Assembly: GCA_013376995.1 (NCBI GenBank)
Contig: JACAAZ010000010.1
Coordinates: 124,001-188,000 of the forward strand
Length of the DNA stretch: 64,000 nt
DNA from: Bacteroidota bacterium
Lineage (GTDB): Bacteria > Bacteroidota > Bacteroidia > Bacteroidales > UBA4417
Direction: 5' to 3'
Shown here: positions 88-5,659 of the stretch, piece by piece
Layout: each line of letters starts with the position of its first letter
Position numbering within the stretch: position 1 is the first letter of the stretch
Program-made: the position numbers and the translations under genes
The notes under the pieces: model-generated
The model's input: only the letters and a program-made list of their open reading frames with translations
What the model was told of the DNA's origin: nothing
Database searches by the model: none

Positions 88-3000
88 TCAATAATTAAGA
101 TTTTGAGCTAAAAGTCTTTCAGCCTGTGCAAGTGTTATTCCTTTCCGCTTGGCATAATCTGCAGCCTGCTCTTGCCCTACCCTTCCAACATTAAAGTATT
201 GTGAGAGCGGATGCGCAAAGAAATATCCACTAACCGAAGCTGCAGGATACATGGCAAAGTTCTCCGTAAGGCTGATACCTGCCTCAGAAGCATTAAGCAA
301 ATTGAAAATGGATTCTTTCTCACTATGCTCGGGGCAGGCAGGATACCCGGGAGCAGGCCGTATCCCATTGTATTCTTCCGCAAGCATTTGTTCAATCTCT
401 AAGGATTCAGAAGAATTATACCCCCAGAACTCGCGCCTGACTCGCTTATGTAGCAATTCCGTAAATGCCTCGGCAAGCCGGTCGGCCAGTACTTTTACCA
501 TTATGGCATTGTAATCGTCATTCTCAGCAACATAGCGATCAGCCAGTTTTTCTACGCCAAGTCCGGCTGTTACAACAAAGAATCCGAGGTAATCTTTGAC
601 ACCAGAACCGACAGGTGCAACGAAGTCAGAAAGACAGAGGTTGGGAATCCCTTCCTCCTTGGCTTCCTGGTTCCTCAGGAAATGGAAGGATTTAAAAGTC
701 TTTCCCGAAGTCTCATCATACAATTCCACACTATCACCTTCTGACCTTGCCGGATAAAATCCATAAACAGCATTGGCCGTAACATGGCGTTCAGAGATCA
801 TCTTCTTAAGCATCTCCTGGGCATCATTGAATAACTTCCATGCCTCGGCACCCTTGGCCTTATCTTCAAAAATCTGAGGGTACCGCCCACTGATCTTCCA
901 TGCCTGGAAAAAGAATGTCCAGTCGATGTACTGGCTTATTTCTTCCAATGAATAGGATTTGAGTATTTCACGTCCAAGTTTTTGAGGGCAGACGGGCATA
1001 ACAGTGGTCCAATCGATAACAGGCTTGTTTGCCCTTGCCTGTTCAAGCGTAACATACGTAACCCCGGCACGTGTGTTTTCATGGCGGTGGCGCAGTGCAG
1101 AGTACTTTTCAAGCACTGAAGCCTGGAATGCGGGCCGCTGATCTGCTGAAAGCAGGCTGGCAACAACTCCGGTAGCCCGAGATGCATCTTTTACATGCAC
1201 AACTGTCTGCGAATATGCAGGCGCAATCTTCACAGCAGTATGCATTTCGCTGGTTGTAGCACCGCCGATAAGAAGGGGTATTTTAAGGCCTTCACGCTCC
1301 ATTTCTGATGCTACATGGACCATCTCTTCCAGTGAGGGTGTAATAAGGCCACTCAGCCCAAGTATATCGACTTTTTCTCTTTTAACAGCTTCAATAATGG
1401 ATGCGGTCGGAACCATAACGCCCAGGTCAACTACCTCGTAATTGTTACAGGCAAGCACAACACCCACAATATTCTTTCCTATATCATGCACGTCTCCTTT
1501 TACTGTTGCCAGCAGTACTTTCCCCGCCGACCGGCTTTCGCCTTCTACTTTTTCAGCCTCAAGGTACGGAAGCAAAACTGCAACAGCTTTTTTCATCACC
1601 CTGGCACTCTTAACCACCTGGGGAAGGAACATTTTTCCTTCACCAAACAGGTCTCCAACTACATTCATGCCGGCCATCAGGGGGCCTTCAATTACCTCAA
1701 GCGACCTGGAAAACAGCACCCTGGCTTCTTCCACATCTTCTGCAATATGAGCATCTATTCCGTGAACTAGTGAATAACTCAGCCGTTCCTTAACAGGTAA
1801 TTCGCGCCATGCTTCTGTTTTTTCTTCTTTCTTTCCACTGGCAGTCATCCGGGAAGCATATTCAATCAGCCGCTCCGTTGCATCCTCCCTCTTATTGAAA
1901 AGTACATCTTCAATCCTTTCAAGTAATTCCTGGGGAATATCATTATAAACAGGGAGATTACCGGCATTTACAATGCCCATATCAAGCCCTGCTTTTATGG
2001 CGTAATACAGGAAAATGGAATGCATGGCTTCCCGCAAGGCATCATTTCCCCTGAACGAAAATGAGAGGTTACTGATGCCACCACTAACCTTGGCATACGG
2101 GAGATTTGCCTTAATCCATTCAATAGTGTGAATGAAATCAACTGCATAATTTGCATGCTCTTCAATGCCGGTAGCAATGGCAAGGACATTTGGGTCGAAG
2201 ATGATCTCTTCGGGTGGAAATCCTACCTCATTAACCAGTATATCATACGCTCTTCTGCATATTTGAATACGCCGTTCGAAGGTCGAAGCCTGGCCTTCTT
2301 CATCAAAAGCCATAACTACTGTAGCAGCCCCGTAACTCCTGACGAGCCGTGCCCGCTCCCTGAAAGCCTGCTCACCCTCCTTCAGGCTTATTGAATTTAC
2401 GATAGCCTTACCCTGGAGGCATTTCAATCCTGCTTCAATCACTGACCATTTGGAAGAATCGATCATGATGGGCACAGAAGCAATTTCAGGCTCTGACATT
2501 ACCATATTGAGGAAACGGACCATTGCTTTCTCGGCATCAAGCATCGCATCATCCATATTGACATCGATCACCTGTGCACCGGCTTCCACCTGTTGACGAG
2601 CAACTGTAAGGGCTTCTTCGTATTTCTCTTCAATGATAAGCCTGGCGAATTTTCTTGAACCCGAAACATTGGTACGTTCCCCGATATTGATAAAATTGCT
2701 GCCGGGAAAAACCAGCAGGGGCTCAAGTCCGCTAAGTTTCAGATGATGGTCATCAGCCGGAATTTTCCGAACGGATGCCTTTTCAGCAAGCAGGCATAAT
2801 TCGTGAATATGCTCCGGAGTGGTTCCGCAACATCCCCCGATGATATTCACAGAACTGTTGAGAAGTATCTCATTAACATGGCCTGCCATCTGAAGAGGAG
2901 TTTCATCATATTGCCCGAACTGGTTCGGGAGTCCGGCATTCGGATAGGCGCTGACGTAAAATGGAGCTTTCTGGGAAAGTTCTTCGATGAAAGGTTTTAG

Positions 3001-3756
3001 TTGCTTGGCTCCAAGAGAACAATTAAAACCCACGCTCAGTAAATCGAGGTGGGATATGGAATTCAGGAATGCCTCAACGGTCTGGCCTGATAAGGTCCTT
3101 CCGCTCAGGTCAGTGATAGTACCTGAAACCATTACCGGAATTCTTTTCCCTTTAGCGGTGAGGACATTATTGATTGCAAAAAGGGCTGCTTTGGCATTTA
3201 ATGTATCAAATATAGTCTCAACAAGAAGGAGGTCGACATTACCCTCCAGTAAACCTTCAATCTGCTCGCTGTAGGCAGAAACCAGGTCGTCGAAGTGAAC
3301 TGCCCGAAAACCCGGGTCATTCACATCAGGTGACATTGAAGCCGTTTTGTTGGTAGGACCTATAGAGCCTGCAACGAACCTGGGTTTTTGAGGATTGGCA
3401 AGGGTAAATTCATCTGCTATTTCACGTGCAATTTGTGCAGAAACCTTATTCATTTCAAACACCCGGGGCTCCATATGGTAATCGGCCATGGAGATGCGGT
3501 TGGCATTGAAGGTATTGGTTTCGATGATATCAGCTCCGGCAGCAAGATATTTTTTATGGATCTCCCGTATTATATCCGGACGGGTAAGGCTCAGCAAATC
3601 ATTGTTGCCAATAAGGTCGGATGGGTGATCAGCAAACTTTTCACCCCTGTAATCCTTTTCCTTGAGACCATATTGCTGGATCATGGTACCCATGGCACCA
3701 TCCATAACCAGGACCCTATGCTCAATTTCCCTATAAATATTCCGTTCGGTTCTCAT
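88..3756 (-). CDS. metH: Cobalamin-dependent methionine synthase
   Basis: Cytoplasmic enzyme that moves a methyl group from methyltetrahydrofolate through cobalamin to homocysteine, making methionine. The 1222-residue length matches full-length MetH. Domains in order: homocysteine-binding (about 1-330) with the three zinc cysteines seen at C246 (FNCSLGA) and C309/C310 (GGCCGTTP); pterin-binding (about 350-620); cobalamin cap and B12 Rossmann domain with DVHDIGK, in which H757 should be the lower cobalt ligand; C-terminal AdoMet activation domain (about 900-1222). I chose the ATG at 3756; a TTG one codon upstream gives a longer frame but is less likely. A SAM-I riboswitch lies upstream on the same strand. 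The divergent neighbour ahcY handles the SAH formed from SAM, so the locus covers the methyl cycle. No missing key residue was seen. Confidence 0.97.
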
Positions 3757-3771
3757 CAAAATAAATTTTCT

Positions 3772-3810
3772 CCTGCATATTCAAATATAATCATATTGAA
3801 TATATGCAGG
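3772..3810 (-). promoter_or_regulatory. Hairpin between SAM riboswitch and metH start
   Basis: An inverted repeat lies 15 bases before the metH ATG. CCTGCATATTCAA (3772-3784, plus strand) pairs with TTGAATATATGCAGG (3796-3810), leaving a 2-base bulge. It could be the expression platform of the upstream riboswitch, acting either as a terminator or by hiding the start region. The loop also contains TATATTTG on the minus strand (3782-3789), which fits the Bacteroidota -7 box, so a secondary promoter is possible. Both roles are inferred. Confidence 0.5.
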
Positions 3811-3865
3811 CAGTTACCAAAATAACACAACCTATCTTCCGAAAATCGAATTATAAGCGTGCTCC

Positions 3866-3972
3866 AATTATAAGTTTCCCGCTATGGGAACAGGTTTTGG
3901 CACCTTTCAAGCTTTTGTGCTGAGGTTGCCAGAGGATCCCTGAGCCTGGTCTCTCCCCTCTTCTTTATAATT
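3866..3972 (-). promoter_or_regulatory. SAM-I (S-box) riboswitch of metH
   Basis: Read on the minus strand, this stretch has the conserved S-box core in order: AGAGGGGAGAGACC, then GGCTCAGGGATCC, then GGCAACC, and later GGTGCCAAAACCTG, followed by a short GTTCCC/GGGAAC hairpin. The ends close as a P1 helix: AATTATAAAG (3963-3972) pairs with CTTATAATT (3866-3874). This is the known architecture of SAM-I aptamers, which bind S-adenosylmethionine and turn down methionine genes. It ends 109 bases before the metH ATG. A second copy of the 3' P1 strand lies at 3849-3857 and may act in switching. Confidence 0.9.
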
Positions 3973-4207
3973 CAAACACCTTTTTGTAATAGGTGAAGAA
4001 CGATTTCAGCATGGATTTAACCGAAAAAGTCACCAAAATTCTGTGAAAGGAACCGTTTGAAGCTGCAAAGATAAGCATAATACTTAAAAAACAGCAGATT
4101 CAGGGTTTTGTTGGTATGATCAGCTGTTTGGCTTTCAGGACCCAGAGTTTCTGTTCTTTCTGCACGTGAATTATTGAATTCGAAAAAATTAGCATCCAAC
4201 ATTTGCT

Positions 4208-4231: not shown

Positions 4232-5659
4232 ATGCATATGGAACAGATACTTATCGATACAAACCTTGTCTATAAGGTTAAAGACATCAAGCTGGCCGAA
4301 TGGGGCCGCAAGGAAATTGAAGTTGCTGAAAAGGAAATGCCCGGGCTCATGTCCATCAGGCGTAAATATTCAGCAGAAAAACCGCTGAAAGGAGCCAGGA
4401 TTACAGGATCTCTGCATATGACCATACAAACGGCTGTGCTGATTGAAACCCTGGTTGACCTTGGGGCAGATGTCCGCTGGGCAAGCTGCAATATATTCTC
4501 CACGCAGGATCATGCTGCAGCAGCAATCGCAGCTGCCGGTGTTCCGGTATTTGCCTGGAAGGGCGAAACCCTCGATGAATATTGGTGGTGTACTTTTATG
4601 GCATTAAGCTTCCCGGGAGGAAAAGGCCCTAACCTTATAGTTGATGACGGAGGTGATGCCACTCTCCTTATCCACAAGGGATTTGCAGCAGAGAAAGACG
4701 CCAGCCTGCTTGAAGCAAAAGCATCAAGCCTGGAAGAAGAAAGCGTAATGAAGATCTTAAGAGAATGTTACGTCGAAACTCCTAAAAAATGGCATGGCGT
4801 AGTTTCAGAATGGAAAGGTGTTTCGGAAGAAACTACCACCGGTGTTCACCGTCTCTATCAAATGATGGAAAAAGGCGAACTGCTGATTCCTGCCATTAAT
4901 GTGAACGATTCTGTAACCAAGTCGAAATTCGACAACCTCTACGGATGCCGTGAATCTCTGGCCGATGGTATCAAGCGCGCCACCGATGTTATGCTTGCAG
5001 GTAAAGTTGTAGTAGTATGCGGATATGGTGATGTAGGCAAAGGATGTGCTAAATCAATGCGTGCCTATGGAGCACGTGTTATTGTTACTGAAATCGACCC
5101 GATTTGTGCATTACAAGCCGCAATGGAAGGTTTTGAAATTACTACCGTAGAAGATGCCCTTGCTGAAGGAAATATTTATGTGACTACCACCGGTAACAAG
5201 GATGTCATCACAGTTGAACATATGTCGAAAATGAAGGATCAGGCTATCGTATGCAACATTGGCCATTTCGATAATGAGATCCAGGTTGATAAGCTCAATG
5301 TCCTTACTGGCATTGAAAAGATCGAGATCAAACCACAGGTTGACAAATACCTGTTCCCTGACGGGCATGCTATATACATGCTTGCTGAAGGCCGCCTGGT
5401 AAACCTGGGTTGTGCCACCGGACACCCATCATTTGTTATGAGCAATTCTTTCTCTAACCAGACCCTCGCTCAGCTTGACCTCTGGAAGAACAATTATGAG
5501 GTTGGCGTTTACCGCCTTCCGAAATACCTTGATGAGGAAGTTGCACGCCTTCACCTTGATCAACTTGGCGTTAAGCTTACAAAACTGACACCTGAACAGG
5601 CCTCCTATATTTCAGTGGCAGTGGAAGGCCCTTATAAAGCTGATCATTACAGGTATTAA
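4232..5659 (+). CDS. ahcY: Adenosylhomocysteinase (SAH hydrolase)
   Basis: NAD-dependent cytoplasmic enzyme that reversibly splits S-adenosylhomocysteine into adenosine and homocysteine, clearing the product inhibitor of methyltransferases. The 475-residue sequence is full length and has the family landmarks: an N-terminal substrate domain ([15 protein letters not shown]), the [14 protein letters not shown] segment, the NAD-binding glycine-rich loop [12 protein letters not shown] near residue 265, and the C-terminal [10 protein letters not shown] that closes the NAD pocket of the partner subunit. Two ATGs lie two codons apart (4232 and 4238); I keep the first, but the second gives MEQILIDTN and is equally plausible. 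It is divergent from metH, with which it completes methyl-cycle turnover. A terminator follows. Confidence 0.97.

Follow-up and report, generated by a model that had tools for sequence, protein, structure and literature searches.

Few riboswitches have been studied as thoroughly as SAM-I, with most of the mechanistic work done on terminator-controlled examples. In one described mode, strand migration, the SAM-bound P1 helix gains base pairs from a competing antiterminator helix (PMC3656099), and in other reported SAM-I leaders the 3′ side of P1 contains the ribosome site (PMC2258182). In SAM-VI of Bifidobacterium breve, P0 and P1 share bases and are mutually exclusive; as published, P0 is the SAM-free form with an open ribosome site, and SAM disrupts P0 and makes P1 (PMC10122661). 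With respect to distribution, an earlier note on this DNA had considered a clear SAM-I riboswitch in Bacteroidota worth reporting in itself, which is not supported, as the class is present in 178 of 247 Bacteroidia genomes and is already listed for Bacteroidetes by Barrick and Breaker (2007; PMC2258182). The regulon study by Sun and Rodionov names eight phyla besides Firmicutes (PMC3766115).

The leader described here resembles SAM-I (S-box, RF00162) in its whole aptamer model, the L2 pseudoknot, P1 as the switching helix and a methionine gene downstream, and differs from it by the lack of an intrinsic terminator and by an upstream P1-competing hairpin that lies outside the 108-position Rfam model. 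As reported for strand-migrating SAM-I, P1 would gain pairs from a competing helix upon SAM binding, but the competitor is there a downstream antiterminator, while here one competitor is located upstream (PMC3656099). P0 and P1 with common bases recall SAM-VI of B. breve as a functional analogy, not as membership, as the aptamer is SAM-I and RF00162 alone passes the threshold. The aptamer is an ordinary SAM-I, and the proposed upstream exchange would be the new part of the leader. A description of an upstream P1 competitor in SAM-I was not found in the accessible parts of the open-licence literature, which is weak evidence of absence.

The SAM-I aptamer upstream of metH

In the window, i.e. 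the whole 64-kb stretch of DNA that was analysed, a full-length RF00162 match (model positions 1-108, P1 to P4) covers positions 3865-3973 on the minus strand with 73.4 bits (E 2.8e-15; gathering score 44.4). It is the sole Rfam match over threshold in the window and the best of its clan. The covariance search bears out what had previously been read from the letters, a SAM-I riboswitch with clear aptamer and P1 on the minus strand, as does the position of the aptamer, 108 nt upstream of metH, for the assignment to this gene. The metH gene itself, encoding the B12-dependent methionine synthase (ORF 88-3759, minus strand, likely start ATG 3756; NCBIfam TIGR02082 with 1727.7 bits), is followed by a metF-like reading frame named by eye from the sequence, and a methionine/sulfur/SAM gene is accordingly found downstream as in other SAM-I loci. 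The divergent neighbour ahcY (adenosylhomocysteinase, 4232-5659, plus strand) is context outside the switch; the intergenic region is common to metH and ahcY and therewith to two SAM-cycle enzymes. A second SAM-I riboswitch of the same genome (L001) is located elsewhere, before a cystathionine-lyase-like gene, likewise named by eye.

For comparison, a clade of 21 leaders was assembled. Besides the window itself, it takes in 12 of the genus's other 15 genomes, one leader from another family of the order (L022) and, from a further family, seven leaders (L063, L087, L099, L167, L179, L183 and L176). A scan of viral contigs for comparison outside Bacteroidota yielded one stretch, which was left out. 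P1 is contiguous with the core, and seven core pairs are present in 21/21 clade leaders. The pseudoknot CAGG/CCUG, which joins loop L2 to the J3/4 strand, is found in the window and covaries strongly, with 125 of 132 Bacteroidota leaders keeping four pairs in five pair combinations (TAGG/CCTA 56, CAGG/CCTG 47, CGGG/CCCG 11, TGGG/CCCA 10, GAGG/CCTC 1); for five of the remaining seven the script located no partner strand. From the aptamer match, the window leader would be expected to bind SAM.

The likely leader promoter TATCTTTG (4066-4073, minus strand) conforms to TAnnTTTG, which we take to be the Bacteroidota-type -7 promoter element and which is located upstream of the aptamer in 21/21 clade leaders. 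Its distance to P1 is 40-51 nt in 20 of these 21 and 103 nt in the window, where about 55 nt extra relative to the 20 relatives are found inside the P0 loop (3980-4053, minus strand).

Proposed exchange around P1 and its read-out

We read the leader, with a probability of roughly 0.6, as a SAM-I riboswitch of a terminator-free Bacteroidota subtype in which P1 is contested from both sides and metH, together with metF, is off when SAM is plentiful. Four strands, all on the minus strand, would take part. Z (UCAAACG, 4054-4060) is the 5′ arm of the hairpin P0 in the fold of the leader segment; A (UGUUUGA, 3972-3978) is predicted by folding to be both the 3′ arm of P0 and the 5′ side of a P1 extension, and both helices covary in diverse leaders. 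B (GAGCAC, 3859-3864) is, from alignment and folding, the partner either of A in the P1 extension or of C (UGUGUU, 3824-3829), with which it would form an anti-P1 hairpin, as suggested by the B:C pairing and its conservation. Early in transcription, Z would pair with A and make P0. After synthesis of the aptamer, SAM would favour the P1 helix lengthened by A:B, and P0 would be opened; in this SAM-bound form, Z and C would be free. Without SAM, A would remain in P0, leaving B free to pair with C downstream. Among these steps, the aptamer, the predicted helices P0 and A:B, their common bases, the B:C complementarity of the clade and the lack of a terminator are supported by the sequence and by comparison; SAM binding, the OFF-with-SAM direction and a read-out at the translation start of metH are inferred.

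Two kinds of leaders differ in how often a terminator occurs. In a set selected by Rfam score within the class Bacteroidia, comprising 89 RF00162 matches (60 fetched by place plus 29 loci), the inner P1 strand reads UUAUC in 70, UUAUU in 8 and UUAUA in 11 leaders. Classic UUAUC/UUAUU leaders, to which L001 belongs, have the aptamer family and, in the case of L001, the organism in common with the metH leader, but have their own traits: terminator-like hairpins occur in 35/78 with 1.0 expected, and P0 is mostly missing. In contrast, intrinsic terminators were detected in 0/59 and 0/11 UUAUA leaders and, by a second criterion, in 0/21 clade leaders, and the search near the window leader reported as its sole site P4 itself. 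The window leader as a SAM-I transcription attenuator was consequently discarded, with no intrinsic terminator downstream of P1. The comparison shows that a UUAUA-P1, terminator-free leader with a predicted P1-competing upstream hairpin recurs across one kind of Bacteroidota SAM-I. We consider it an even call that these leaders form a subtype in which switching is partly moved upstream, with the 3′ arm of P0 in P1 and with Z, A and B co-evolving, and which has converged on an exchange of the SAM-VI type.

Classic leaders also differ by the motif GTTC[TA]T within 60 nt before P1, between promoter and P1 (61/78 classic versus 2/68 UUAUA leaders). In the other SAM-I type of the genus, the 5′ arm of the terminator hairpin contains TCTGACTT, which is complementary to the P1 3′ strand AAGTCAGA; one genome therefore holds a normal attenuator alongside the metH type. 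Leaders with this hairpin are L001 (1501-1700; seen by eye and missed by the script), L004, L014, L016, L017, L021 and L032.

In Bacteroidota, ribosomes are not dependent on Shine-Dalgarno pairing. As read-out of the exchange, the translation start is preferred, with Rho-dependent termination or RNA decay as the main rival, a possibility that we rate as rather unlikely. The rival leaves the exchange itself intact and agrees with the lack of an intrinsic terminator and with the length of the leaders (median distance from P1 to ORF about 131 nt, 109 leaders). It also profits from an accessibility change at the start region that is not robust: with 20 nt of coding sequence included, opening this region is costlier when P1 is formed in 15/21 leaders and less costly in two, but with 50 nt included six leaders stand against six. 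For the translation start, on the other hand, speak two leaders, L010 and L152, with the metH start codon only 15 nt past P1, within possible reach of the P1 extension, so that a longer P1 could cover the start codon directly. Translation in Bacteroidetes is, moreover, reported to be tuned by mRNA structure (PMC6847099).

A hairpin is predicted right before the metH start region (3772-3810, minus strand; -14.0 kcal/mol for the 50-nt segment) and found at the same place in the folds of several relatives, with a sequence that is not conserved. A promoter inside this hairpin (TATATTTG at 3782-3789) was a match by eye, with no matching -33 element by eye, and was set aside. Rejected was the covering of the ribosome start region by C, which seemed convincing on visual inspection within the genus but reached p<=0.05 against shuffles in only 1/21 leaders and varied with transcript length.

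Proposed competition for P1 from both sides

Upstream pairing of the 5′ edge of P1 is observed well beyond the window. In the window, the last 6 nt before UUAUA are predicted to pair upstream with a probability of 0.90 compared to 0.57 in shuffles (p 0.02), and in 129 Bacteroidota leaders the mean probability is 0.71 compared to 0.46; taken singly, 48/129 Bacteroidota, 11/43 metH-linked and 5/21 clade leaders reach p<=0.05. When the segment between promoter and P1 is folded, the 3′ arm of the resulting hairpin falls on the P1 5′ edge in almost every metH leader. An exchange of the last 12 nt among 68 representatives reduced the expected P0 pairs from 7.75 to 5.60, with the real leader higher in 58/68 (p 1e-9, uncorrected for phylogeny), and control windows further upstream gave nothing (p 0.77 and 0.58). 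These representatives are less than 62% identical over 36 nt and were mostly found, among the matches listed, by a pattern that fixes UUAUA; identical aptamers were counted once, and leaders with too little upstream sequence were left out.

The alternative that P0 is real but no competitor, acting instead as a 5′ hairpin for stacking on P1 or for protection of the 5′ end of the mRNA, with switching by B:C alone, is unlikely in our view. The position of P0, which ends at most 3 nt from UUAUA in 101/115 leaders (18/133 being left out as no P1 core was found), would suit stacking, and in 15/59 leaders P0 and P1 overlap by less than 2 nt. Against this, P0 and the P1 extension have at least 2 nt in common in 44/59 and at least 3 nt in 36/59 leaders (clear examples are L024, L041, L043, L057, L097 and L137), and both helices covary: beyond UUAUA/UAUAA, P1 continues outward with 5.36 of 8 possible pairs compared to 4.13 in swaps, higher in 42/59 (p 8.6e-6, equally uncorrected for phylogeny; 9/68 were left out for lack of a P1 core). 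In the Rfam-selected set, at least 3 nt are common to P0 and P1 in 7/10 UUAUA leaders versus 2/46 others (Fisher 1.7e-5), while P0 across the 56 representatives of this set as a whole gave p 0.085. An upstream helix that shares bases with P1, as in an exchange of the SAM-VI kind, is thus found by comparison and folding.

The predicted drop of P0 while the P1 extension is transcribed also speaks against this alternative. In the energy model of the growing transcript, P0 of the 21 clade leaders falls from 0.80 with the P1 core just made to 0.34 with the extension, and the P1 extension rises from 0 to 0.42; in the window, P0 falls from 0.92 to 0.16 once the extension is transcribed. With the full upstream leader and the platform included, P1 of the window is already at 0.975 without SAM in a model that contains neither SAM nor tertiary contacts, and the energy model therefore sets the balance towards P1.

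The inverted repeat of P0, located within about 40 nt of a TAnnTTTG promoter, might alternatively be a DNA operator rather than an RNA helix. This is very improbable, as the sequences differ widely among leaders with the pairing kept, the 3′ arm keeps its place at the edge of P1 in the 101 of 115 leaders mentioned above, and the RNA strand folds P0 slightly better than the complement (p 0.033).

On the downstream side, the contest proposed for P1 would involve B and C. Mean majority conservation across the 21 leaders is 97% for A, 97% for B and 96% for C, compared to 69% for the spacer between B and C and 54% after C. In register, B:C is paired in 96.0% of 126 cells, and slid registers reach at most 62.7%. 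Tested against shuffles, the stability of the B:C duplex reaches p<=0.05 in 13/21 clade leaders, though not in the window (p 0.65); as free duplexes, Z:A and A:B pass the same threshold in 1/21 and 0/21 clade leaders. As B, C and P1 barely vary within the clade and covariation is there nearly nil, the clade figures for B:C rest on conservation.

The repeated P1 3′ strand

The P1 3′ strand CTTATAATT is indeed present twice on the minus strand, at 3866-3874 and at 3849-3857, as pointed out in the earlier note, which had proposed the second copy as a decoy or alternative P1 strand in the absence of SAM. Folding and the alignment, in which the P1 3′ strand (columns 131-138) is identical in 21/21 leaders, identify the first copy as the one in use. 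Among 2000 dinucleotide shuffles of the 105 nt that follow P1, only 14 contain the exact 9-mer again, and 30 have a Watson-Crick match of at least 9 nt to the P1 5′ strand; the repeat is uncommon for a single leader, yet was chosen post hoc from the whole window.

Conservation of the second strand in other Bacteroidota metH leaders, which had been suggested as a check, is not seen in the alignment of leaders with the same architecture: recurrence of TTATAATT between P1 and start codon is restricted to 1/21 leaders, the window alone, with the closest metH relatives compared showing about 76% protein identity across the region that matched (L183 79%, across less of the protein). Forcing P1 onto the second copy is 4.5-10 kcal/mol costlier than using the first at four transcript lengths, with an ensemble probability of <=0.001. 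Among Bacteroidota leaders, a second match of at least 8 nt to the P1 5′ strand is found in 2/130 (L138 and the window) versus about 2.2 expected from shuffles; in L138, this is a 10-nt stretch, TTTATAAATC, about 72 nt after P1. The predicted partner of the second copy is GGAAGATAGG just downstream, with a probability of about 0.60-0.94 in three of four transcript lengths; for the remaining one (-16 to +232), a different partner is predicted. In this genome alone, the second copy would then supply the 5′ side of the inner stem of a hairpin that has B:C as its outer stem. Pairing of the two copies with each other through the TTATAA palindrome was considered and rejected, being 5-11 kcal/mol worse than P1 with the first copy (probability <=0.0002).

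Despite the exact 9-nt repeat, its rarity in shuffles and a further G-C pair possible beyond it, we give a decoy function next to no credence in view of its restriction to one leader, its energetic cost, its lack of enrichment and its other predicted partner. The repeat looks coincidental, and as a P1 strand the second copy looks to have no function by itself. What stands of the earlier proposal is its kind, something that takes the place of P1 when SAM is absent, with the difference that the conserved competitors are the upstream P0 strand and the downstream strand C.

Cumulatively, the first reading of this leader is corrected in that the eye-catching CTTATAATT repeat is not the functional one. 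If the proposed exchange is true, an upstream competitor that acts without a terminator or Shine-Dalgarno masking would represent a second wiring of the same SAM-I sensor.
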